A stretch of 64,000 nucleotides of DNA from Clostridia bacterium (GTDB taxonomy: Bacteria > Bacillota > Clostridia > TANB77 > CAG-465): the NCBI GenBank assembly GCA_017626395.1, contig JAGAIU010000078.1, forward strand, positions 62,001 through 126,000, given 5' to 3'. Positions 28,840 to 41,608 of the stretch are shown piece by piece. Position 1 is the stretch's first letter. Each line of letters begins with the position of its first letter. The notes under the pieces were generated by a model. It was not told the origin of the DNA. It saw only the letters and a list, made by a program, of their open reading frames with translations, and did not search any database. The translations under genes and the position numbers were made by a program.

Positions 28840-28868
28840 TTGACTTTAAGGCCTTTCGATATTATAAT
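28840..28868 (+). promoter_or_regulatory. Promoter of the biosynthetic operon
   Basis: TTGACT (28840-28845), 17-base spacer, TATAAT (28863-28868). Predicted start near 28876, leaving a leader of about 120 bases. Confidence 0.8.
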
Positions 28869-28920
28869 ATTGGGGATTGTTAATTTCAAATCTGCTTTTG
28901 ATGATTTTAGCAGATGTATA

Positions 28921-28941
28921 TGCAAATGTAATTACATTGCA
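28921..28941. repeat. Inverted repeat in the operon leader
   Basis: TGCAAATGTAA pairs with TTACATTGCA apart from one extra A. It lies between the predicted start and the first gene, so it could be an RNA hairpin or an operator. A second pairing, TCTGC with GCAGA, lies just upstream. Confidence 0.5.
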
Positions 28942-28996
28942 GAAACTAATAGTCAAAACAATATTTAGTGATGAACTTTAAAAGAAGGAGGTTACT

Positions 28997-30358
28997 ATGA
29001 GAAGAATTTCTAAGACCGAGTATGTCGCTTTAAGGAAAAAGGGACAAAGCTACATGGAATTGCCTGTTCATGATGAGAATCTTCAGAGTGAGTACGACAG
29101 TACATGGGAAAATCTTAGTGTCTTTTTACATCAATCTCCAGAGGACATCCGAGATTGGCAACTTAATCGTTTAAGCTATCTTGTTGACTATGCTTTCGAC
29201 AACATTCCGCTTTATCATAAGAAATACTCTGAAGTGGGGTATAAGAAAGGAAGCATAAAAACTTGGGCTGACTTTTATAGGCTGCCTTATCTTCGTAAAG
29301 AAGAATTAATCGAGGGATTCCCTGGCGAAATCGTAAAAGACATTGATGATTTCATGCTTTCAACCCGTAGCTCTGGTTCGAGTGGTAAGTTTGTAACTAT
29401 TGCAGTTTCTCAGGAAGCTATCTACAAAGATACATTACAAACCATTCGACAATTCTATATGCAATCTGGCGGAAAGTACTGTGCAGATGACACAATTCTT
29501 TTTATCTATACTTGTCCTTGGTGGGTAAGTCAGATTAAAGGGAAGTTTGTACAAGACTTTTTACCTACCACTACCAAAGTGGAAGACGCCATTGAGCGTA
29601 TAAAGGCAACAAGACCACGTTACATTTCAACCTATCCTACCTATCTTGAAAAGATTGCATCGACTGGTGTTAAGCTTTCGGATTACGGAGTTGAACTTGT
29701 AATTGTGCATTCTGAACAGTCAGACAAAAAGCAGCGCAAAATGCTTGCAAAGGCACTTAATGTAGAAGTTCTTGATGAGTACAGCAGTGAAGAGCTAACA
29801 AGAATTGCTCTTGAGTGTCCAAATCATCATTATCATCTGGAAGAAGATGCTTGCTTTATTGAAATCATAGATAAAGACGGCAATAAACTTCCTGATGGAC
29901 AGCTAGGAATCGTGGTAGGCACAAACCTACTAAACACAGCAACACCAATCATTCGTTATATTCAAGGAGATTTGGCAAAAATCACTACCGAAGAAAATTG
30001 CGAGTGTGGTAACAACGGAAGAATAATCGAAGGGGTTAAAGGACGTAACATGGATTGTGTTATTACTGATACTGGTGAACGTATCCCGGCATCTTGCTTT
30101 ATGGATATCGCATATAACTGGTTTTTAGTATATGACATTCCTGTTCACGGACTTAAGTACCAATTTGTACAACCAGAAGTTGGAAAACTTGACCTTTATA
30201 TCATTGAGGGAGAGTATTCCTTACAACTTGATGCTATCAAAGAAACCATCTATACTTTAATTCCGCGTACAACACAACTTAATGTGTATAAAGTGGATAA
30301 GTTACCTTACGATCAAGGAACAAAGTATAGACCTGTTATTAGTTTAGTTGGGAGGTAA
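28997..30358 (+). CDS. PaaK/CapK-like AMP-forming ligase
   Basis: 453 residues, first gene of the island operon, with AAGGAGG before ATG 28997. It belongs to the adenylate-forming (COG1541) type: P-loop STRSSGSSGKF near residue 125, DEYSSEE as the substrate/adenine segment, YIQGD as the ATP-ribose motif, a CECG pair near 335 seen in phenylacetate-CoA ligases, and a C-terminal AMP-binding subdomain ending in YDQGTKYRPV, although the usual catalytic Lys region is divergent. It should activate a carboxylic acid as an acyl-AMP. No CoA-product evidence and no carrier protein are present, so the acceptor may be an amine or amino acid made by the neighbours. Confidence 0.82.
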   Translation: MRRISKTEYVALRKKGQSYMELPVHDENLQSEYDSTWENLSVFLHQSPEDIRDWQLNRLSYLVDYAFDNIPLYHKKYSEVGYKKGSIKTWADFYRLPYLRKEELIEGFPGEIVKDIDDFMLSTRSSGSSGKFVTIAVSQEAIYKDTLQTIRQFYMQSGGKYCADDTILFIYTCPWWVSQIKGKFVQDFLPTTTKVEDAIERIKATRPRYISTYPTYLEKIASTGVKLSDYGVELVIVHSEQSDKKQRKMLAKALNVEVLDEYSSEELTRIALECPNHHYHLEEDACFIEIIDKDGNKLPDGQLGIVVGTNLLNTATPIIRYIQGDLAKITTEENCECGNNGRIIEGVKGRNMDCVITDTGERIPASCFMDIAYNWFLVYDIPVHGLKYQFVQPEVGKLDLYIIEGEYSLQLDAIKETIYTLIPRTTQLNVYKVDKLPYDQGTKYRPVISLVGR

Positions 30359-30363
30359 ACTAT

Positions 30364-31599
30364 ATGAGTGAAAGTGGTAGATTTTTAGCAGAAGCTAAAC
30401 ATGCAATTAGAGAGAAGGCTTTCAATCATGCAGCATTTTTAGTTGAGGCTAAAATCAAGGCATTGAGAGCTAATACTCCTAATTTGCCCTTTGAAAAGAC
30501 TAAGCTCGCTGAAGTGGAGATTAACAAATTCTTCTATGAAGGCGAGACTGTTGACAGAGTCATGATCGTTTTGAGATCTAACGGTTGTCAGCATTACAAG
30601 ACTAACGGTGGATGTTCTATGTGTGCGCACTTGAATGGTGCACCGCTTACTGAAAAGATTACCCATCACAATTATGTGACTCAGTGGAATTCCGTTCTCG
30701 ATGGAAGTTTTATTGAGTGTGCAAGTGGTGAGTTCAATCTTAATGATTATCCTGTGGTATGTGTATACAACCTTGGAAGTCTGTTGAACCCAGAAGAGAT
30801 TCAAAAAGAGACTGTCGAATATATCTTTAGAACTCTTAATGAGTACAAAGGTGTTAAGAAAGTTATTATTGAGTCTCGTGCTGAGTATGTAACAGATGAA
30901 ATTCTTGAGGTTATCAAGAGTGCCTATGATGGTATCGTAGAGGTTGGCATCGGTGTCGAATCTACTAATCGCACTGTTCGCGAACTTTGCCATCATAAAG
31001 CTATTGATGATACAAGCATTATCACAAGAGCAGTTGAAACCTTGCATAAGTACGGTATGAAAGCTTTGGCGTATGTCAATTTCAAACCCGTATTTCTTAC
31101 CGAGAAAGAGGCTATCGACGATGCTATTCAAACTTCTGTTGACTGCTTCAAGCAGTTTGGATTTGATGCAGTATCTGTTGAGCCTACATCTTTGCAGGAA
31201 AATTCGCTTGCAAACCATCTGTATGACCTTGGTCTTTACAGAGTACCTTGGCTTTGGAGCTTGAGAGATATCATTCATGGTATCTACGATGAGTTGGGTG
31301 AAGATAAACTCGACATCCGTCTTGGTGGATACTTTGATGAAGAAGTATTAAGCGGTAGTCAGGGTGCAGGCTTTGAAGGTCGCAACGAAATTTTTCCTCA
31401 TATGACTTCAAGTAATTGCGGTCATTGCACTAATGAATTTGTGGAAGCTATTAAACAGTTCAATATGAGCTATGATGTAAGAGACTTAGATAAGGTAGAA
31501 CCTTGTCCTTATTGCTATAAATTGTGGGAAGAAACAAAAAGCATTAAGGATTCTCGTAGCATCATCGAACGCATTGAAGACATTCTTGGAAGGGAGTGA
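30364..31599 (+). CDS. Radical SAM enzyme, COG1244/RaSEA-like
   Basis: 411 residues, starting 5 bases after the ligase gene. The Fe-S cluster cysteines are Cys75, Cys84 and Cys87 (C-x8-C-x2-C in GCQHYKTNGGCSMC), a wide-spaced motif like COG1244 proteins and archaeosine radical SAM enzymes rather than the canonical C-x3-C-x2-C. A SAM-barrel follows with VCVYNLGSLLNP, VIIESRAEYV and EVGIGVEST. The C terminus has two more Cys pairs (NCGHC and PCPYC) that could hold a second cluster or zinc. The reaction is unknown. tRNA modification in related enzymes uses lysine as a partner, which would fit an amino-acid-centred pathway. Confidence 0.8.
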   Translation: MSESGRFLAEAKHAIREKAFNHAAFLVEAKIKALRANTPNLPFEKTKLAEVEINKFFYEGETVDRVMIVLRSNGCQHYKTNGGCSMCAHLNGAPLTEKITHHNYVTQWNSVLDGSFIECASGEFNLNDYPVVCVYNLGSLLNPEEIQKETVEYIFRTLNEYKGVKKVIIESRAEYVTDEILEVIKSAYDGIVEVGIGVESTNRTVRELCHHKAIDDTSIITRAVETLHKYGMKALAYVNFKPVFLTEKEAIDDAIQTSVDCFKQFGFDAVSVEPTSLQENSLANHLYDLGLYRVPWLWSLRDIIHGIYDELGEDKLDIRLGGYFDEEVLSGSQGAGFEGRNEIFPHMTSSNCGHCTNEFVEAIKQFNMSYDVRDLDKVEPCPYCYKLWEETKSIKDSRSIIERIEDILGRE

Positions 31600-31607
31600 C
31601 TTATTCA

Positions 31608-32711
31608 ATGAAGGTTATCTGTGGAGTGTGTAAGCACGAATACGAATACCCGATTGAACAGATAAGTCATAGACATCCTGAACTTGAATTGGATTTGGTT
31701 CCCCCTAACTTTTGGGAAATCAAGGATTACTTTCCTGAATTTGAAATTAAGTTTTCTGAAGACGGAGAGTTAATCCTTCCCACTGTTGGGAAACAGTCTA
31801 ATCTTAAAGCAGGCAATACGCCGCTTATCAAGTACAGGGAAGGCGTCTACTTAAAAGACGAATCTGTCAATCCAACTGGAAGTTTTAAGGATAGAGGCAT
31901 GGAGAATATCATGAATGAAGTTCTTAGGCATGGTAAAAGTAAAATTGCTGTTGTTTCCTGCGGAAGCGGTGCAATTTCTATTATCAGATATGCCAAGGAA
32001 TATGGTATTAAATCTTTAGCTTTTATTCACAAGGACGTTGACGAGTCTAGCATAAGGCTCATCTCTGATGCAGATGAAGTTTTCTACAGTGATACTTTTA
32101 TTCACAGCTATGAAGACTTTATGAAGTATTCACTTTCACATCAAGAGGATGTGTTCTGGGGATTCTTGAATACCAATATTTCGTACATGCTTGGTCTTAG
32201 GACTATGGCTTATGAAATTGTTAGGGATTTGAGGAAAACTCCGGACGTTGTAATCATCCCTTGCGGTAGTGGAATGGATATTTTAGCACAGAATCTTGCA
32301 TTTAGAGAAATGTATCAAGCAGGAATAATATCTAAGATTCCAAAGATTGCAATAGTCGAGCTTAAAGGAGGTAATCCTATTGAGCAAGGATTTTTCAAAG
32401 GTATGAATCGTATGCTCTATGTTATCGATGAACCTGTCGAATCCAAGACTATTCTTTCAAATGATACTTGTTTCAATTACAAGAAAATCTATGATATGGT
32501 AACTCGTGGTGAAGCTTTTTTCTTATCTGTTAGCGATGCTGAAATTGATTATTTTATTCAGAAGCATCCTGACTATGAAGCAAACTACGACTATACCTCG
32601 ATTTCTGCGATGGCGGCACTGGAAAAATATCTTGCAGTTGCGAGACCAAAAGAGACAGTTGTAACTGTCCTTACATGCAAAAATAGAATAGGAGGTAATC
32701 TTGATGAGTGA
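31608..32711 (+). CDS. Threonine-synthase-like PLP enzyme (fold II)
   Basis: 367 residues from ATG 31608; GTG 31596 overlaps the previous stop and the ribosome site and is less likely. One N-terminal CGVC pair is followed by the fold-II core: SVNPTGSFKDRG with the PLP lysine, SCGSGAISIIRYAKE, and the Gly-rich IPCGSGMDILA phosphate loop. Threonine synthase, cysteine synthase and diaminopropionate synthases share this fold and do beta- or gamma-replacement. The sequence diverges from housekeeping ThrC, and no other threonine genes are near, so a replacement reaction in a special pathway is likelier. Confidence 0.8.
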   Translation: MKVICGVCKHEYEYPIEQISHRHPELELDLVPPNFWEIKDYFPEFEIKFSEDGELILPTVGKQSNLKAGNTPLIKYREGVYLKDESVNPTGSFKDRGMENIMNEVLRHGKSKIAVVSCGSGAISIIRYAKEYGIKSLAFIHKDVDESSIRLISDADEVFYSDTFIHSYEDFMKYSLSHQEDVFWGFLNTNISYMLGLRTMAYEIVRDLRKTPDVVIIPCGSGMDILAQNLAFREMYQAGIISKIPKIAIVELKGGNPIEQGFFKGMNRMLYVIDEPVESKTILSNDTCFNYKKIYDMVTRGEAFFLSVSDAEIDYFIQKHPDYEANYDYTSISAMAALEKYLAVARPKETVVTVLTCKNRIGGNLDE

Positions 32712-33957
32712 TCATAAAGAAAAACTCACAATGTCACAGTATTTTGACATTGGCCTTGAAAGACATGCGCTCTTGATGGACGCATCTAATCTGGATTGGT
32801 TCACGTTTCCTCTCTTTTCTTGTATTAGAAAGGAAATTTACAGGACCCTTGAAGATCCGGATGAAGATATGGACTGGGGTTATTCTTACCCTGGTGGCAA
32901 GAACAGACTAAGAGAACTGATTGCACAGCATGAAACCTATATCGAAGGTGAAGAAATTACACCTGAAGAAGTAATTGTAGGTGGAAATGGTACAACCGGT
33001 ACGCTTAACTTTGTCGCACAAATTCTTGCCAGAGAGAATCATTTTGCTCAGGACGTTGAAATTATCTATCCCGTACCCGCTTATGCAGGTCTTATGAAGA
33101 GCTTGACTTTTTATGGACTTGTACCTAAAGTGGTACTTATGGATAAGGACAACGATTACAAAATGCGCTTGGAAGATGTGGTTAAGGCTTATACGCCTAA
33201 AACAATCGCACTTCTTATTACTAATCCTGCAAATCCTTCCTGTAAGTTTATTGATGAAGATGAACTTCAGAAAATTGTAGATTTTTGCATCAGCAAGAAT
33301 ATCTACATTGTTTACGATGCAATCTTTGAAGAAGCACCTATGTTTAACAACAGACGTGTGCAGATTTTTAAGATGGCTCGTGACTACAAGAAGCTTATCA
33401 AAATCAAAGGCTTCAGTAAGGATATTCCTCAGCTTAGCGATTTGCGTTGTGGATGGACTATCTGCAAAGATCCTAACTTTATCAATTCCTTGTTGGAGTT
33501 GGGAGAAGCAGTAAACTATTCTAACTCTACTTTCCTGGAAGCACTGGGAATTGTTGAGATGACGCAGAGAGTTAATGTGGATAAAGGGGATAAGTCACCT
33601 GAGACTCTTGAGTATGTAAGAGAAAAAGATCAGTATCATGGACAGGTAATCACTTTGTTTAATGATGCATATAAGTATCTTCTTACTCAGACAGACGTTG
33701 TTGAGAATGTTGTATACCCTGATGCGGGTAACATTATGTATGTAACTTTGAGAAAAGATGCATGCAACAGAAAGGGTGTTATGACATCTCACGAACTCTT
33801 CGTACACATCCTTGAAAACGAGAATATCCTCGTTACTCCTGGTAATGTCTTCGGACTTCCTTTGGAGGACTTGAGTTTTAGAGTTACTATCTCTAGAGGA
33901 TATGATCAGTTTATGGATGGACTCAGACGTATTGTTGAACTGTTTAAGGAGGAATGA
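32704..33957 (+). CDS. Class I/II aminotransferase-like PLP enzyme (fold I)
   Basis: 417 residues from ATG 32704, overlapping the previous gene by 8 bases behind AGGAGG, so translation is probably coupled. Typical AspC-like landmarks: WGYSYPGGKNRLRELI near the N terminus, GGNGTTGTLN, ITNPANPSCKFI, YDAIFEE, the PLP lysine in GFSKDIPQLSDLRCGW, and FRVTISRG. It may move an amino group onto a keto acid or act as a specialised lyase. Substrate unknown. Confidence 0.85.
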   Translation: MSDHKEKLTMSQYFDIGLERHALLMDASNLDWFTFPLFSCIRKEIYRTLEDPDEDMDWGYSYPGGKNRLRELIAQHETYIEGEEITPEEVIVGGNGTTGTLNFVAQILARENHFAQDVEIIYPVPAYAGLMKSLTFYGLVPKVVLMDKDNDYKMRLEDVVKAYTPKTIALLITNPANPSCKFIDEDELQKIVDFCISKNIYIVYDAIFEEAPMFNNRRVQIFKMARDYKKLIKIKGFSKDIPQLSDLRCGWTICKDPNFINSLLELGEAVNYSNSTFLEALGIVEMTQRVNVDKGDKSPETLEYVREKDQYHGQVITLFNDAYKYLLTQTDVVENVVYPDAGNIMYVTLRKDACNRKGVMTSHELFVHILENENILVTPGNVFGLPLEDLSFRVTISRGYDQFMDGLRRIVELFKEE

Positions 33958-33961
33958 TAAG

Positions 33962-34843
33962 ATGAGAAATACATTTCTTGAACTTAACAGCCTGACAGAC
34001 GGACATTATGATTTTTGCTACATGGGCATTAATTGCTGCAGTGCAGACTACCTTTTAGGTGTTGAGAAAGGGGCAGACAAAGTAAGAGAGTTATCTTTCA
34101 GATATGCAAATGCTGATGGAACGGCTCTCCCGCTTAAAGTCTATAGCCCTGAAAGAGGATACATCTTGAAGGATGTAACTGCCTGTGACTACGGAAATGT
34201 ATCTGCATCTAGTCTTGAAGAACTTGGACGTGAACTCGAAAAAGTTAATCTTCAGACTGGATGCATTCCAGTTTTTGTGGGTGGAGATCATAGTGTCACT
34301 TATGAGCTTGTAAAAAAAGTTTCTGATGATTACGACAGCATTGTTGTAGTACAATTCGATGCTCATAGTGATTACATTGATGAGTATTCTGAATATCCTC
34401 ATGGTTCTGTTATGAAGGAAACGAGTAAACTTGAAAAGGTTGAAAGAATTATTCATTTTGGAATCAGAGGAAATCTTAATTGTCAACCAGCTATTGATCA
34501 AAGCAGAAGCGAAGGCAACATGGTAGTACCTTACTACGAGATTAAAGATAAACTTACAGAAGTTTTGAATAGTCTTGCTGGTAAAAAGGTATACATTACC
34601 TTTGATACGGATTTTATGAATCCTGCTATCGCTCCTGCGACAAACTGTCCTGAACCTGGTGGTCCTTTCTACGAGGAAACACTTGACTATCTTAAATCTA
34701 TTATTGAAGCCTCTGGCGAAATTGTAGGTTTAGATTTTGTTGAGTACAATCCGACTTGTGAAGGTGCTAGTGTTACAGGTATCACAATCGTAAATTTGAT
34801 TATGGAGTGCATGCACTTCATTAAATCAAACACTACTTCTTAA
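33962..34843 (+). CDS. Arginase/agmatinase superfamily enzyme
   Basis: 293 residues from ATG 33962 (GGAGGAATGATAAG upstream), 4 bases after the aminotransferase stop. All six Mn ligands of the ureohydrolase fold are present: His110 (GGDHS), Asp133, His135, Asp137 (DAHSD), Asp215 and Asp217 (DTDFMNP); only the usual third Asp of the last motif is Asn. It is therefore likely an active hydrolase of a guanidino- or amidino-type bond, such as arginase, agmatinase, guanidinobutyrase or formiminoglutamase. In context it probably processes a guanidino intermediate or releases a ureido/amino group. Confidence 0.88.
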   Translation: MRNTFLELNSLTDGHYDFCYMGINCCSADYLLGVEKGADKVRELSFRYANADGTALPLKVYSPERGYILKDVTACDYGNVSASSLEELGRELEKVNLQTGCIPVFVGGDHSVTYELVKKVSDDYDSIVVVQFDAHSDYIDEYSEYPHGSVMKETSKLEKVERIIHFGIRGNLNCQPAIDQSRSEGNMVVPYYEIKDKLTEVLNSLAGKKVYITFDTDFMNPAIAPATNCPEPGGPFYEETLDYLKSIIEASGEIVGLDFVEYNPTCEGASVTGITIVNLIMECMHFIKSNTTS

Positions 34844-34867
34844 CTTATAGAAACGGAGGAAAGAACT

Positions 34868-36547
34868 ATGTTAGATGTAGAACTTAGTAAAGTCGCATTA
34901 AATTACGGCTTTAGCAAGAGCGTCTTAACAGACGCTACTTTCCAGGTTAACAGTGGTGACAAAGTTGCTATTGTTGGTGATAATGGAACTGGAAAAACTT
35001 CGATTTTCAATCTTATCGCAGGTATCGAAAGACCTTCTAGCGGTACTGTTAGTAAGAGAAAAGAGGCAACTGTTGGTTTCTTAACCCAGATTGCACCGGA
35101 TGCTCCTGCTAACCAAACTGTAAGGGAGTTCTTGAGAACCGCCTACGCAGAACTTGCACAACTTCAGACAAAGATGGCTGAATTAGAAGCAGTTATGGGT
35201 AATCCCGAAACTTCTCCTGAAGCTTTGGATAAAGCTATGGCTGCTTATGGTAAGGCACAGGATATGTTCATGAACGCTGGCGGATATGAGGTGGAAGCAA
35301 ATATCGAAAAGATGGCTGCTAACCTTAAGATTACTGATTTTCTTGATCAGGAATACAATTCGCTTAGCGGTGGACAGAAAACAATTGCTTGTCTTGCGCG
35401 TATGCTTTTGCAGCACCCGGATATTCTTCTTCTTGATGAACCTACCAATCATTTGGACATTCCTACTTTGGGATGGCTTGAGGACTTCATCAAGAACTAT
35501 CGCGGATCTGTTGTATTAGTATCGCATGACAGATACTTCTTGGATAAGACTATCAGTAAGGTGTTTGCTATCTCTGATGGTAAAATCAAAACCTACTTTG
35601 GAAACTACACTCAGTACACTGAAGCTTTAGCGGCTGAACGTGAACTTCAGGAACAGGCTTACGTTACTCAGCAGAAGAAAATTGCTGGTATGGAAGATAC
35701 TATTCGTAAGAATAGAGCATGGGGTGCACAGAGCTCCGAGAAAGCTTATAGAGTTGCTAAGCAGCTCGAAAGACGTATCGAGGAGATGGACAAGGTAGAA
35801 AGACCTAAAACCCAAAGAGATATCGCACTTAGCTTCAACCAGGAATCCAGATCTGGTAACGATGTTTTGCATATTGAAGATCTTTACTTCTCTTATGGAG
35901 ATGACATTCTCCTTTGCGGAGCTAATCTTGATCTTGAGTATGGACACAAAGTTTGCCTTATCGGAAAGAATGGTTGTGGCAAATCGACCGTACTTAAAAT
36001 CGTTCTTGGTATGCTTGGTGGCTATGATGGTACTGTTGCAATCGGTAGCAATGTAAAAATTGGTTACCTTCCTCAGCATGTTGCTTTTGAGGATGAGCGC
36101 AGAACTATCTTAGAAGAGTTCCAGAGACATTTCCAAGGTTCTCTTACTCAGGCATATTCCACTCTCGCAGCATTCCACTTCTTTGGTGAGGATGTTCATA
36201 AGCGCATTTCTTCTCTTTCTGGAGGAGAAAAGGTAAGACTTAAGTTTGCAGAGCTTGTTCAAAACGATGTAAACTTCCTTATCTTGGATGAACCTACTAA
36301 CCATTTGGATGTAAGGAATCGTGAGATTCTGGAAGAAGCATTGAACGATTTTGGTGGAACCGTTTTGTTTGTTTCTCATGACCGTTACTTTATCAACAAG
36401 GTTGCCAACAGAGTGGTGGAGCTTGAAGATGGTGAGTTTACTAGTTACTTAGGTGACTATGACTACTATCAGGAACGTAAGTCCGCTCCTCCCAGTTCTG
36501 TGAAACCTGATGATTCTGGCCCCAGGAAAGTCTTGAAGAGAAATTAA
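34868..36547 (+). CDS. ABC-F ATPase, island copy; candidate ribosome-protection protein
   Basis: 559 residues with two ABC domains and no membrane segments. Walker A motifs are GDNGTGKT and GKNGCGKST; signatures LSGGQKTIACLAR and LSGGEKVRLKFAE; Walker B LLLDEPTNHLD and LILDEPTNHLD. The interdomain linker (about 240-310) is helical and charged, like the arm that reaches the ribosomal peptidyl-transferase centre in antibiotic-resistance ABC-F proteins. Its G+C and codons match the island and differ from the native ABC-F at 37939. Inference: self-resistance to the cluster product; a housekeeping EttA-like role is the alternative. Confidence 0.9.
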   Translation: MLDVELSKVALNYGFSKSVLTDATFQVNSGDKVAIVGDNGTGKTSIFNLIAGIERPSSGTVSKRKEATVGFLTQIAPDAPANQTVREFLRTAYAELAQLQTKMAELEAVMGNPETSPEALDKAMAAYGKAQDMFMNAGGYEVEANIEKMAANLKITDFLDQEYNSLSGGQKTIACLARMLLQHPDILLLDEPTNHLDIPTLGWLEDFIKNYRGSVVLVSHDRYFLDKTISKVFAISDGKIKTYFGNYTQYTEALAAERELQEQAYVTQQKKIAGMEDTIRKNRAWGAQSSEKAYRVAKQLERRIEEMDKVERPKTQRDIALSFNQESRSGNDVLHIEDLYFSYGDDILLCGANLDLEYGHKVCLIGKNGCGKSTVLKIVLGMLGGYDGTVAIGSNVKIGYLPQHVAFEDERRTILEEFQRHFQGSLTQAYSTLAAFHFFGEDVHKRISSLSGGEKVRLKFAELVQNDVNFLILDEPTNHLDVRNREILEEALNDFGGTVLFVSHDRYFINKVANRVVELEDGEFTSYLGDYDYYQERKSAPPSSVKPDDSGPRKVLKRN

Positions 36548-36607
36548 GCCAAAGGAGTAGCATAGACTACTTGTAGCTTTGTGCTACTCCTAACTTTTCC
36601 ATTTGGC
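36548..36607 (+). other. Intercistronic hairpin between ABC-F and decarboxylase genes
   Basis: GCCAAA (36548-36553) pairs with TTTGGC (36602-36607), and inside it AGGAGTAGCA pairs with TGTGCTACTCCT. No T run follows the main stem, so it looks more like an RNA-stabilising or partial-attenuation element than a terminator. The gap of about 85 bases is the largest in the operon. Confidence 0.6.
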
Positions 36608-36632
36608 TGACGAGAAAAAGGAGGTTATAGCT

Positions 36633-37844
36633 ATGAATGAAAAAGTTCAAAGATATATCCGCGAACTCTTTTCTAATGACCCGGAAGTGATGGCTAATCC
36701 TACTTGTTATATTTACGACTTGGCTGAAATTTCTGAGAGAATTAGAGAGATTCAAAGGTATAAGCTTGCTAATGTATCACTCTATTATGCAATGAAAGCA
36801 AATCCTAACTTAACTGTACTTGAGCATGTGTTAGCACATGACGAGATTGCAGGAATTGAAATTGCATCGATCGGTGAGCTTGAAAAGGTGAGAAAGGCTG
36901 GTCTTAAAGAAGACTCTAGAGTACTCTTTACCGGTCCTGGTAAAACACCTAAAGAGCTTGAAGAGGCAGTAAGAAGTAAAATTAGATTTATCAATGTTGA
37001 ATCTGTAGTTGAAGCGATTCGTATCAACGAAATTGCTAAAAGACTTAATATCGCCAAAGTAAACATTCTCCTTAGAGTTAATATCAACTATTATCTTGAT
37101 GGAGCATCTGAATACATGGCTGGTATGTCTACTAAGATGGGCATTGATCAATCGAGATTTTATGATGACTACAAGATTATTTCTGAACTTGAGCATATTA
37201 ATATTTGTGGATTCCATGTTTTTGCAGCAGATGGCGTGCTGGACTATGAGATCTTGATCAGATATGCAGACGAAGTATTCAAGTTTGTACAAGAAGCTGA
37301 AAAGGTTGTCGGTAATGTAGATGTCATCGACTTCGGTGGCGGTTTTGGAATTGATTATACCAAAGCTGGTAGACATTTCGATACCAAGACATACTTTGAA
37401 GAACTTGGAAAAACTTTGAAGAAGTACTCTTTCGAGGGTAAGGAAATTATCCTTGAGCTTGGAAAGTTCATTGTTGGCAGTGCAGGTTACTATGTCACTC
37501 AGATAGTCGATATTAAAGACTGTAAGGGTATGAAGCATATCGTAACTGCTGGTGGTGTAAATCACATGAGACTGCCTATCGCAACTGATAGAAAACATCC
37601 CGTGTATATCATTGAGATGGGTGTACCTAATCTCTATGAAGGACAAATCGAAGTCTCTAATGAGACAGTAGATATTGAAGGTCCGCTGTGTATGACAGAG
37701 GACAAGATATCATGGAATGAGCCTATCGAACACGCGAGAATCGGAGATATTGTTGTATTGACGCAATCCGGAGCCTATTGTTTTAGTGCTTCGACATTAT
37801 GGTTTTTGAGCCATGAAATGCCGCTCGAAATCGTAATAAAATAA
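36633..37844 (+). CDS. Fold-III PLP-dependent decarboxylase (Orn/DAP/Arg decarboxylase 2 family)
   Basis: 403 residues from ATG 36633 behind GAGGTTATAG; a longer in-frame start at 36603 falls inside the hairpin. The alanine-racemase-like barrel carries the PLP lysine in YYAMKANPN, VEIASIGELEKV-like substrate entry residues, GFHVFAAD, IDFGGGFGID for phosphate binding, and a C-terminal beta domain with GPLCMTEDK (Cys at the usual intersubunit active-site position) and GAYCFSAS. It most likely decarboxylates a basic or D-configured amino acid. It closes the operon; a terminator follows. Confidence 0.85.
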   Translation: MNEKVQRYIRELFSNDPEVMANPTCYIYDLAEISERIREIQRYKLANVSLYYAMKANPNLTVLEHVLAHDEIAGIEIASIGELEKVRKAGLKEDSRVLFTGPGKTPKELEEAVRSKIRFINVESVVEAIRINEIAKRLNIAKVNILLRVNINYYLDGASEYMAGMSTKMGIDQSRFYDDYKIISELEHINICGFHVFAADGVLDYEILIRYADEVFKFVQEAEKVVGNVDVIDFGGGFGIDYTKAGRHFDTKTYFEELGKTLKKYSFEGKEIILELGKFIVGSAGYYVTQIVDIKDCKGMKHIVTAGGVNHMRLPIATDRKHPVYIIEMGVPNLYEGQIEVSNETVDIEGPLCMTEDKISWNEPIEHARIGDIVVLTQSGAYCFSASTLWFLSHEMPLEIVIK

Positions 37845-37851
37845 TCATAAA

Positions 37852-37892
37852 GAGGAGTTCCGTTCATTTGAACGGACTCCTTTTTTTTACGT
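37852..37892 (+). terminator. Terminator of the biosynthetic operon
   Basis: GGAGTTCCGTTC pairs with GAACGGACTCC around ATTT, followed by eight T. Confidence 0.9.
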
Positions 37893-37938: not shown

Positions 37939-39828
37939 ATGAATTATAAAATAGTAAATGGTGCCGTATCTTATGGTGCAGAAACCATTTTAGAAGAAAT
38001 AAATTTTGAAATTAAAGAGAAAGAAAAAATAGCTATTGTTGGAAGAAATGGTTGTGGTAAATCTACATTACTTAAAGCAATAATAGATAATGATATGCTA
38101 GAGGCAGGAATAGGTGAGAGTAAATTTGGTATATATAAACAAGGTTCACCTCAAATTGGATATTTAGAACAAATTCAATTTGAAGACTCTAATGAAACTT
38201 TACTTGGGGAAATACTTAAAGTATATAAACCATTAATTGAGCTTGAACAAAAAATAGCTAGACTTCAAGAAGAATTGAATACTAATTCTAATGATAAAAT
38301 AATAAAAGATTATACTAGTGCATTAGAAAGATATGAAATAATGGATGGCTATACATACAAAAAAGAGTATGAAACTGCAATATATAAATTTGGTTTTACT
38401 AAAGAAGATATGAATAAAAATGTTAATGAATTTTCTGGTGGACAAAAAACAAAAATTGCATTAATAAAACTATTACTTAGTAAACCGGATATATTACTTT
38501 TAGATGAGCCTACTAACCATTTAGATATTACAACTATAGAATGGTTAGAGTCATATCTTAAAAATTATCCTAAAGCGGTTGTTATAGTATCACACGATAG
38601 AATGTTCTTAGATAAAATAGTAAATAAAGTATATGAAATAGAATACGCCGCAATGACAGAATATACAGGAAACTTTACGTCATATGAAATTCAAAAGAGA
38701 ATGAACTATGAAAAACAACTTAAAGATTATGAATATCAACAAAAAGAGATAAAACGTTTACAAGCTATTGCAGATAGGTTTAGATATAAGCCTACAAAAG
38801 CCAAAATGGCACTTTCTAAGCTTAAACAAATAGAGAGAATGATAATAGTAGAAGAACCTAATAAATACGATTTAAAGTCATTTCACACTAATTTTAGCAT
38901 TGATAGAGAAAGTGGAAAGCTTGTATTAAAAGTAAAAGACTTAAAAATAGGTTATGATAAAGAATTAGCACAAGTATCTTTTGATTTATTTAAAGGACAA
39001 AAGCTAGCTATTATTGGTGCTAATGGTATGGGAAAATCTACATTACTTAAGACATTAATTAATCAAATACCACAACTAAGTGGTGAATTTGAATATGGTT
39101 ATCATGTAGACCAAGCATATTTTGATCAACAAATGGACTTTGTAGATAAAGAAAAGACGGTACTTGAAGAATTTAGTGAATCTTTTCCTAATCTTACAAT
39201 AACTGAAACTAGAAGTTCGCTTGCTGCATTTATGTTTTACCAAGATGATATAGAAAGACAAATAAAATTATTATCTGGTGGAGAAAAAGTAAGACTTGCA
39301 CTTTGTAAAATATTAAAAAATGGACCAAACTTATTGTTATTAGATGAACCTACAAACCATATGGATATAGTAGGAAAAGAGAGTTTAGAAAATTTACTAA
39401 AAGCATATAAAGGAACAGTTCTTGTTGTGTCTCATGATAGATATTTTGTAAATAAAATAGCAGATTCATTATTAATATTTGAAAATGGAAAAGTAACATA
39501 TTTTAAAGGTACTTACCAAGAGTATTTGGATACTAAACCTCAAATAGAAGAACAAGTAGTAAATACAGAAAAGAAAGAGAAAAAAGAAAATAGTCAGTAT
39601 CTCGAAAATAAAGAAAAAAATAGAATTAAAAATAAGATAAATAAATTAGAAAATGAGATTGCTAAAAGAGAAGAAAAGATAGCTCAGCTTCAACAAGAAA
39701 TGATGAGTGATGAAGTTTGTACAAGTTATACTAAACTTGCAGAATTACAAGAAAAAGTTCAAAAACTAGAAAATGAAATAGAAGAGAGAATGACTGAGTG
39801 GGAAGAACTTAGTAATATGATAAATTAA
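37939..39828 (+). CDS. ABC-F ATPase with C-terminal coiled coil (YdiF/YfmR/Uup-like)
   Basis: 629 residues. Two ABC domains (Walker A GRNGCGKST and GANGMGKST; signatures FSGGQKTKIAL and LSGGEKVRLAL; Walker B LLLDEPTNHLD and LLLDEPTNHMD) are joined by a charged linker, then a Lys/Glu-rich coiled-coil tail (about 535-629). This matches housekeeping translation factors of the Uup/YfmR/YdiF type that relieve stalled ribosomes. Codon use is native A+T-rich, in contrast to the island ABC-F. An extended -10 TGGTATAAT lies at 37901-37909. Confidence 0.9.
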   Translation: MNYKIVNGAVSYGAETILEEINFEIKEKEKIAIVGRNGCGKSTLLKAIIDNDMLEAGIGESKFGIYKQGSPQIGYLEQIQFEDSNETLLGEILKVYKPLIELEQKIARLQEELNTNSNDKIIKDYTSALERYEIMDGYTYKKEYETAIYKFGFTKEDMNKNVNEFSGGQKTKIALIKLLLSKPDILLLDEPTNHLDITTIEWLESYLKNYPKAVVIVSHDRMFLDKIVNKVYEIEYAAMTEYTGNFTSYEIQKRMNYEKQLKDYEYQQKEIKRLQAIADRFRYKPTKAKMALSKLKQIERMIIVEEPNKYDLKSFHTNFSIDRESGKLVLKVKDLKIGYDKELAQVSFDLFKGQKLAIIGANGMGKSTLLKTLINQIPQLSGEFEYGYHVDQAYFDQQMDFVDKEKTVLEEFSESFPNLTITETRSSLAAFMFYQDDIERQIKLLSGGEKVRLALCKILKNGPNLLLLDEPTNHMDIVGKESLENLLKAYKGTVLVVSHDRYFVNKIADSLLIFENGKVTYFKGTYQEYLDTKPQIEEQVVNTEKKEKKENSQYLENKEKNRIKNKINKLENEIAKREEKIAQLQQEMMSDEVCTSYTKLAELQEKVQKLENEIEERMTEWEELSNMIN

Positions 39829-41182: not shown

Positions 41183-41608
41183 ATGGAATGGAATCAAATG
41201 TTACCAGAATTTGATGTTTTTAATCTAGAAGAAACACTACATTTCTATGTAGATTTAATTGGTTTCCATGTTGAATATGATAGACCAGAAGATAGATTTG
41301 CTTTTCTTCAATTTGAAAAAGTTCAAATAATGGTTCAAGAAATAGATAAAGAAAATAATAAATGGGGAACAGGAGAATTAAAATATCCACTAGGAATAGG
41401 AATTAATTTCCAAATAGATGTTACAAATATAGATGAAATATATAATAGATTAAAAGCAGAAAAATATAAAATATTTGTAGAAATGGAAGATCATTGGTAT
41501 AGAAAAGATAATGTACTAATGGGTTGTAGAGAATTTTTAGTACAAGATCCTAATGGTTTTGTTTTAAGATTTAGTCAAGATTTAGAGAATAGACCTGTGG
41601 AAGAATAA
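41183..41608 (+). CDS. VOC (glyoxalase/bleomycin-resistance-like) protein
   Basis: 141 residues with two beta-alpha-beta-beta-beta modules of the vicinal-oxygen-chelate fold: LEETLHFYVDLIGFHVEYD in the first and REFLVQDPNGFVLRFSQDL in the second. Metal-ligand positions are partly lost, as in binding-type members such as bleomycin-resistance proteins. CAAGGAGG gives ATG 41183. Substrate unknown; monocistronic. Confidence 0.85.
   Translation: MEWNQMLPEFDVFNLEETLHFYVDLIGFHVEYDRPEDRFAFLQFEKVQIMVQEIDKENNKWGTGELKYPLGIGINFQIDVTNIDEIYNRLKAEKYKIFVEMEDHWYRKDNVLMGCREFLVQDPNGFVLRFSQDLENRPVEE

Follow-up and report, generated by a model that had tools for sequence, protein, structure and literature searches.

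What might be produced by an operon that encodes three pyridoxal phosphate (PLP) enzymes of different folds, a radical S-adenosylmethionine (SAM) enzyme, an AMP-forming ligase, a ureohydrolase and an ABC-F ATPase? Such an operon lies in a 64,000-nucleotide stretch of Clostridia bacterium DNA (GenBank assembly GCA_017626395.1, contig JAGAIU010000078.1, positions 62,001 to 126,000; hereafter the window, whose numbering we use). An earlier note on the window had described the genes as one transcription unit and an undescribed biosynthetic operon. Our analysis suggests that the operon is probably a mobile biosynthetic gene cluster whose specialised metabolite derives from an amino acid and most likely inhibits translation. 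All seven open reading frames were confirmed on one strand (28997-37844), and their spacing (5, 8, overlap 8, 4, 24 and 85 bases) was reproduced using ATG starts with good Shine-Dalgarno sites. The family calls hold for all seven proteins, as judged by profile matches and nearest solved relatives, and the operon is indeed without a carrier protein, non-ribosomal peptide synthetase (NRPS) or polyketide synthase (PKS). The folds read from the enzyme set stood as well, although the fold-III decarboxylase had to be corrected to an SbnH/BtrK-like enzyme and the supposed threonine synthase proved to be without the GN motif. No described cluster matching the seven-gene set was found in family libraries or in an open-access literature collection of 5.4 million papers, and none of the six proteins searched matched a PADLOC anti-phage profile.

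We favour a specialised metabolite, probably a translation inhibitor, because the ligase and the radical SAM gene recur as a pair with an NRPS module and, in two clusters, with a different ABC-F. The pair is adjacent in three other cluster types. The one with the NRPS (L039/L103, G599:C1; nine genes) comprises a SPASM radical SAM gene, the ligase, the radical SAM gene, an ABC-F, a methyltransferase, a further radical SAM gene, an ATP-grasp gene, a glutamate-2,3-aminomutase-like gene and the NRPS itself, which is read as a condensation-adenylation protein (715 amino acids) followed, in another frame, by the adenylation remainder, a carrier and a thioester reductase (667 amino acids); this frame break may be a sequencing error. 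The second type (L019:5188-15372; ten genes, in a genome labelled Bacilli) runs from an ABC-F, an acetylornithine-deacetylase-like M20 deacylase and a GNAT gene through the ligase and radical SAM pair to a second radical SAM gene, an ATP-grasp gene, a third radical SAM gene, a HAD gene and an arginine-deiminase-like gene, and the third (L020/L038) consists of a SPASM radical SAM gene, the ligase, the radical SAM gene and a GNAT gene. L019 and L039 have ABC-Fs that resemble each other at 63% but belong to another clade than that of the operon, being only 38-41% identical to it; to the latter, unlinked ABC-Fs of the genus are 43-45% identical. Because the linked proteins are thus no closer to the operon's ABC-F than the unlinked ones, the pair probably acquired an ABC-F on at least two occasions. 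More distant relatives of the ligase and the radical SAM enzyme also occur together in L040:416-12415 (G661:C34), beside genes for a B12-radical-SAM enzyme, an ornithine-racemase-like protein, a SAM synthetase, a methyltransferase, a B3/4-domain protein and a tryptophanyl-tRNA synthetase. The four cluster types form a comparative set for telling core from exchangeable parts.

The earlier note had looked to the co-occurrence of at least four of the seven genes in other genomes as a check, and all seven were found, in the same order, in nine further genomes. The resulting ten carriers belong to three genera, two families and one order, and conservation of gene order across them is far beyond chance. 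In a survey of 287 genomes of this order, the fold-I enzyme (counted at E <= 1e-60) was present in 10, which are exactly the operon carriers, and the radical SAM subfamily in 13, while a covariance model of the operon's leader RNA detected that element in the same 10 genomes but not in the remaining 277, and only upstream of the seven-gene operon. No further copy was found in 398 genomes of the phylum or 391 of the class, and the family is therefore rare and concentrated in the order; the operon is strictly co-inherited. The radical SAM protein had no match in phages and no relative on viral contigs, and a plasmid search with it returned two distant Streptomyces matches only (28% identity). 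All seven genes are under purifying selection, with a ratio of non-synonymous to synonymous substitution rates of 0.07-0.23 between two same-genus copies (G019 and G012), and catalytic motifs are kept across the carrier set. The internal stops that L017 and L018 seemed to have in their last gene fall 5′ of its ATG and are not real. The nine further loci come from metagenome assemblies labelled Clostridia or Clostridiaceae, one from sheep duodenum and several labelled 'Lapin' (presumably rabbit).

Base composition, phylogeny and the insertion site together indicate that the operon was acquired horizontally and moved as one cassette. The GC content of its genes is 38-42%, versus 28.7% for the window, and at third codon positions the GC fraction is 0.28-0.37, versus 0.09-0.22 in the neighbouring genes. 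In a tree built from the ligase plus the radical SAM protein, this genome's copy clusters with that of G527, a member of another family (support 86/91), the copy of another genus (G463) nests inside same-genus copies (support 95/98), and the two most divergent copies are same-genus ones. The identity of DnaX is 46% for G463 and 53% for G527 over its conserved part, against 65-84% for the operon proteins there; in three other loci the ureohydrolase is 58-66% identical by tblastn. Operon-free genomes of the same genus have a VOC gene directly before an OptrA-like ABC-F gene (ABCF2), with gaps of 17-95 bases, and so show the empty site; in most carriers of this genus, the operon is inserted between the two. 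In the window, the VOC gene sits downstream of the operon instead. ABCF2, with 668 bits against the OptrA model (cut-off 1450), keeps its synteny with the VOC gene where the operon is missing, and is possibly an old resistance locus.

The ligase matches the PaaK-like profiles NF045666 and TIGR02155. The only NCBIfam match of the radical SAM protein is TIGR01210 (193.6 bits, E 4.7e-57), below the curated cut-off of 212.15, and RaSEA membership by that cut-off is thus not reached; the relative in L040, also in a bacterium, passes it with 232.9 bits. The second gene of the operon nevertheless belongs to the radical SAM superfamily, since it has both the three-cysteine motif (CX8CX2C, in 12 of 12 sequences) and the barrel: Elp3 heads the Foldseek list for its model, and many radical SAM structures were matched, with VIA Z up to 14.7 (root-mean-square deviation 3.9, 223 aligned). 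Enzymes of these kinds also occur on two plasmids. Streptomyces sp. FR1 pFRL3 (L022:11851-22997) encodes a RaSEA-like radical SAM enzyme, a P450, a transaldolase-like serine hydroxymethyltransferase, GT9 and a NodU-type carbamoyltransferase, in what looks like a nucleoside-type natural product cluster; Bartonella kosoyi pTLV-1 (L023:1198-11237) encodes a PaaK-like ligase (34% identical), an ATP-grasp enzyme, an aminotransferase, a flavin-dependent (FAD) enzyme, an enolase-like protein and a MATE exporter, possibly a small biosynthetic cluster.

Among the PLP enzymes, the fold-II protein is of the PALP/threonine-synthase-like kind and keeps the PLP lysine (SFKDR), but it scores far under every curated cut-off, and the GN motif (S-S/T-G-N) that the threonine synthase family usually carries is replaced by SCGSGA. 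The fold-I protein is an Aminotran_1_2 enzyme whose match to the GntC model reaches 111 bits against a cut-off of 415, and that to VioD 59.9 against 390.9. GntC was among its Foldseek matches, not ahead of ordinary aminotransferases, and was absent from the 50 VIA matches listed, which excludes nothing. We do not assign the protein to the GntC/VioD group, as the curated scores were not reached and neither structure nor profile is closer to it than to ordinary aminotransferases. These cyclic-arginine synthases have the N-terminal residues E9 and S25-S26 (PMC10367076), and the profile alignment covered the middle part of GntC only. In the two most divergent carriers a VOC gene is followed by a stand-alone paralogue of the fold-I enzyme, 52-54% identical (L018:2192-3990 and L017:2197-3995). 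The fold-III protein has the ornithine/diaminopimelate/arginine decarboxylase fold, its best PDB match is SbnH (E 1.2e-52), and its lysine, GGGFG stretch and C-terminal cysteine, the motifs of SbnH and BtrK, are present in all ten loci. The ureohydrolase belongs to the Arginase family, and its six metal ligands (GxDH, DAHxD, DxD) are found in the window and nine loci; L021 did not show DxDF in that exact form, but its remaining motifs are kept.

The operon begins with a consensus promoter and ends with an intrinsic terminator (Table 1), as the earlier note had proposed. Consensus promoter sites occur in the region at chance frequency (48 found, 45.7 expected); we credit this one despite that because its sequence lines up and is conserved across the ten loci. 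The 114-133 nucleotides that separate it from the first gene can likewise be aligned in all ten and form a three-way junction of stems P1 (8-14/85-91), P2 (26-31/46-51) and P3 (58-66/71-78; columns of alignment A7). In the junction 86.4% of cells are paired, versus 77.8% in shuffles, and 14 of the 21 pairs have two-sided changes. The covariation score, counted on a sequence-only alignment, was 0.388 versus 0.246 and was reached by 0 of 500 shuffles, a count that is not a probability because the leader sequences are related. Sliding the partner by 1-3 columns made the covariation collapse, a control that is biased towards the structure since it was derived from one member (L013); P2 and P3 alone likewise exceeded shuffles. 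Besides P1, RNAalifold prefers a pairing of P1's AUCUGC strand with a distal GCAGAU. This alternative covaries weakly, and a two-state switch is therefore only suggested; single-sequence folds often have a hairpin closing over the Shine-Dalgarno region. Rfam 15 gave nothing at or above the gathering score over the leader and chance matches only. The leader is probably an undescribed regulatory RNA, and it may be a riboswitch. A 26-codon frame within it (28901-28981; MILADVYANVIT...), of which five loci have similar versions and the other five none, is probably fortuitous because it overlaps conserved stems.

From the enzyme families we infer each step of a possible pathway to what would be a small molecule. 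A non-standard amino acid would be made by the ureohydrolase together with the fold-I and fold-II enzymes. Its precursor may be a guanidino compound, given the agmatinase-type hydrolase of the operon and the arginine-deiminase-like gene of L019. The PaaK-like ligase would activate a carboxylate and join the parts rather than form an ester of coenzyme A (CoA), and the RaSEA/Elp3-like radical SAM enzyme would modify the joined intermediate. The last enzyme would then strip the carboxylate from the conjugated amino acid, a late decarboxylation that is proposed by analogy with SbnH, FslC, AcsE, MccE and BtrK, which decarboxylate amino acids in conjugated, not free, form and one of which belongs to microcin C, a translation inhibitor (PMC7857480). 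Expression of the operon would be controlled by the structured leader RNA in its 5′ untranslated region, and the ABC-F ATPase would shield the producer's ribosomes.

The proposed target, the ribosome, follows from this ABC-F, which is best read as a self-protection factor, as is established in producers of ribosome-targeting drugs, with Ard1 for A201A as precedent (PMC10201436). The protein has two nucleotide-binding domains and two DEPTNHLD motifs, and passes the NF000355 cut-off of 380 with 463.3 bits. It is also the weakest link in the argument, and several points weigh against a cluster for a translation inhibitor. The ABC-F linker is not of the long resistance type and is near the length of EttA-type and OptrA-like factors, and, among solved structures, those nearest to the protein in sequence are housekeeping factors of the EttA type, so that it may be a housekeeping-type factor; the operon contains no exporter gene; and the carrier hosts are draft metagenome assemblies with small genomes. 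A short linker is compatible with a resistance role because PoxtA and OptrA also have short linkers (PMC10201436).

Other explanations account for parts of the same evidence. The agmatinase-type ureohydrolase, the aminotransferase fold and the PaaK-like CoA ligase are all common in catabolism, and the operon, with its decarboxylase, might serve to degrade or salvage a guanidino or polyamine compound, the amino acid being used as a source of nitrogen or energy. Such a pathway, however, has no place for an ABC-F or a RaSEA-like radical SAM enzyme, and the presence of the same pair in an NRPS cluster, the lack of an uptake system and the sparse, mobile distribution make this explanation unlikely. 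Alternatively, the operon might modify tRNA, rRNA or a translation factor, like archaeosine or the β-lysylation of elongation factor P: the families nearest to its radical SAM enzyme, RaSEA and Elp3, have tRNA as their substrate, and an aminomutase of the KamA family is encoded in a relative cluster. The PLP enzymes would then make an unusual amino acid, the ligase would attach it, the radical SAM enzyme would mature it and the ABC-F would serve the modified ribosome. Translation-modification genes, however, are rarely swapped as cassettes with variable enzyme sets, and the NRPS module, the GNAT and M20 deacylase genes and the sparse presence favour a small molecule; we consider such a role quite improbable.

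If the product is a small molecule, it might still be a siderophore or metallophore related to staphyloferrin B, given that SbnH is the nearest PDB entry to the last enzyme and that the fold-II enzyme has a weak SbnA match. Yet the fold-II enzyme is nearer to threonine synthase than to SbnA, and the absence of an NRPS-independent siderophore synthetase and of receptor or uptake genes renders this very unlikely. A ribosomally synthesised and post-translationally modified peptide (RiPP), with a 15-26-residue leader frame (MILAxxxAxVIT) as precursor, would suit the presence of a radical SAM enzyme and of the frame in five loci. The other five of the ten carriers, however, lack the frame yet retain the RNA stems, the frame is not preceded by a Shine-Dalgarno site, and neither a SPASM nor an RRE domain was called in the radical SAM enzyme; we rejected the frame as a leader peptide or precursor and regard a RiPP cluster as scarcely credible. 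A specialised-metabolite cluster, probably for a translation inhibitor, thus remains the reading we prefer. A wider proposal, which we put forward only tentatively, is that the ligase and the radical SAM enzyme may be the common core of an undescribed family of ribosome-targeting products of gut Clostridia, with exchangeable amino-acid modules, independently recruited ABC-Fs and, in the seven-gene branch, a new riboswitch-like leader that senses product or precursor.

Table 1. Positions of the operon, its control elements and neighbouring genes in the window
Feature	Position	Strand	Remarks
Promoter TTGACT-17-TATAAT	28840..28868	+	TTGAC and -10 hexamer aligned, conserved in 10/10 loci
Leader RNA: P1 closing stem, P2 and P3 hairpins, possible switch stem, hairpin near the Shine-Dalgarno site	28869..28996	+	covariation
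PaaK-like AMP-forming ligase (AdenL)	28997..30358	+	adenylation motifs conserved
TIGR01210/RaSEA-like, Elp3-fold radical SAM enzyme, CX8CX2C	30364..31599	+	
Fold-II PLP enzyme, diverged from threonine synthase	31608..32711	+	alternative start GTG 31596
Fold-I PLP enzyme (aminotransferase or cyclase)	32704..33957	+	GntC is the best NCBIfam model, under cut-off
Agmatinase-type ureohydrolase	33962..34843	+	all six metal ligands
ABC-F ATPase, putative ribosome protection	34868..36547	+	
Fold-III PLP decarboxylase	36633..37844	+	closest to SbnH and BtrK
Intrinsic terminator, hairpin and T-run	37859..37876	+	
OptrA-like ABC-F (ABCF2), chromosomal neighbour	37939..39828	+	marks insertion site, outside cassette
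VOC gene (glyoxalase/bleomycin-resistance fold)	41183..41608	+	in most relatives the left neighbour of the site

Biosynthetic gene clusters are a known kind of system; the core of this one is undescribed, and so, probably, is its regulatory RNA. We assign the operon to no characterised pathway because the curated tests of the candidates failed or gave no result. If a specialised metabolite is indeed its product, the operon would represent antibiotic-like biosynthetic logic without NRPS, PKS or RiPP signatures, which rule-based genome mining may miss, and would offer a candidate regulatory RNA whose ligand would point directly to the product.

The resemblance to known systems differs from enzyme to enzyme. 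The fold-II enzyme shares with threonine synthase the PALP domain, the LKDESxNPTGSFKDRG stretch and N-terminal cysteines, whereas S-S/T-G-N is S-C-G-S in all ten loci. An arginase-fold hydrolase beside a fold-II PLP enzyme is also found in the D-cycloserine cluster (DcsB and DcsD), from which the operon differs by having no heme hydroxylase, racemase or ATP-grasp enzyme and a fold-II enzyme that is not CysK-like. The link to GntC, VioD and OrfR is that, among NCBIfam models, GntC scores best with the fold-I enzyme and VioD is listed too; the operon, however, has no arginine hydroxylase and the score is far below the cut-off. The decarboxylase shares with SbnH the active lysine, the cysteine and, at the specificity helix, the xRLP stretch, but the lysine of the SbnH C-T-P-K loop is a glutamate here (C-M-T-E), S308 and W309 differ, and, in contrast to the SbnH/BtrK/FslC/MccE group, there is no citrate-activating or carrier partner in the operon. 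With glutamate replacing lysine in this specificity loop, the partner is more likely to be another acyl group or a cationic one. As in the case of Ard1, LmrC and TlrC, the ABC-F lies within a biosynthetic operon and passes NF000355, although by score it belongs to another clade, with a short linker and EttA-type nearest solved sequences. The radical SAM enzyme, finally, has the TIGR01210 match, the CX8CX2C motif and, in the model, the Elp3-like barrel in common with RaSEA and Elp3. It differs from them in a conserved stretch, GGYFDEEVLSGSQG, that is absent from the Streptomyces relative, from Elp3 in lacking the acetyltransferase domain, and from RaSEA, which acts on lysine-modified preQ0 in tRNA, in being bacterial and paired with a ligase rather than with an ArcS or tRNA partner; if our reading is correct, this would be the first non-tRNA role for a RaSEA-type radical SAM enzyme.

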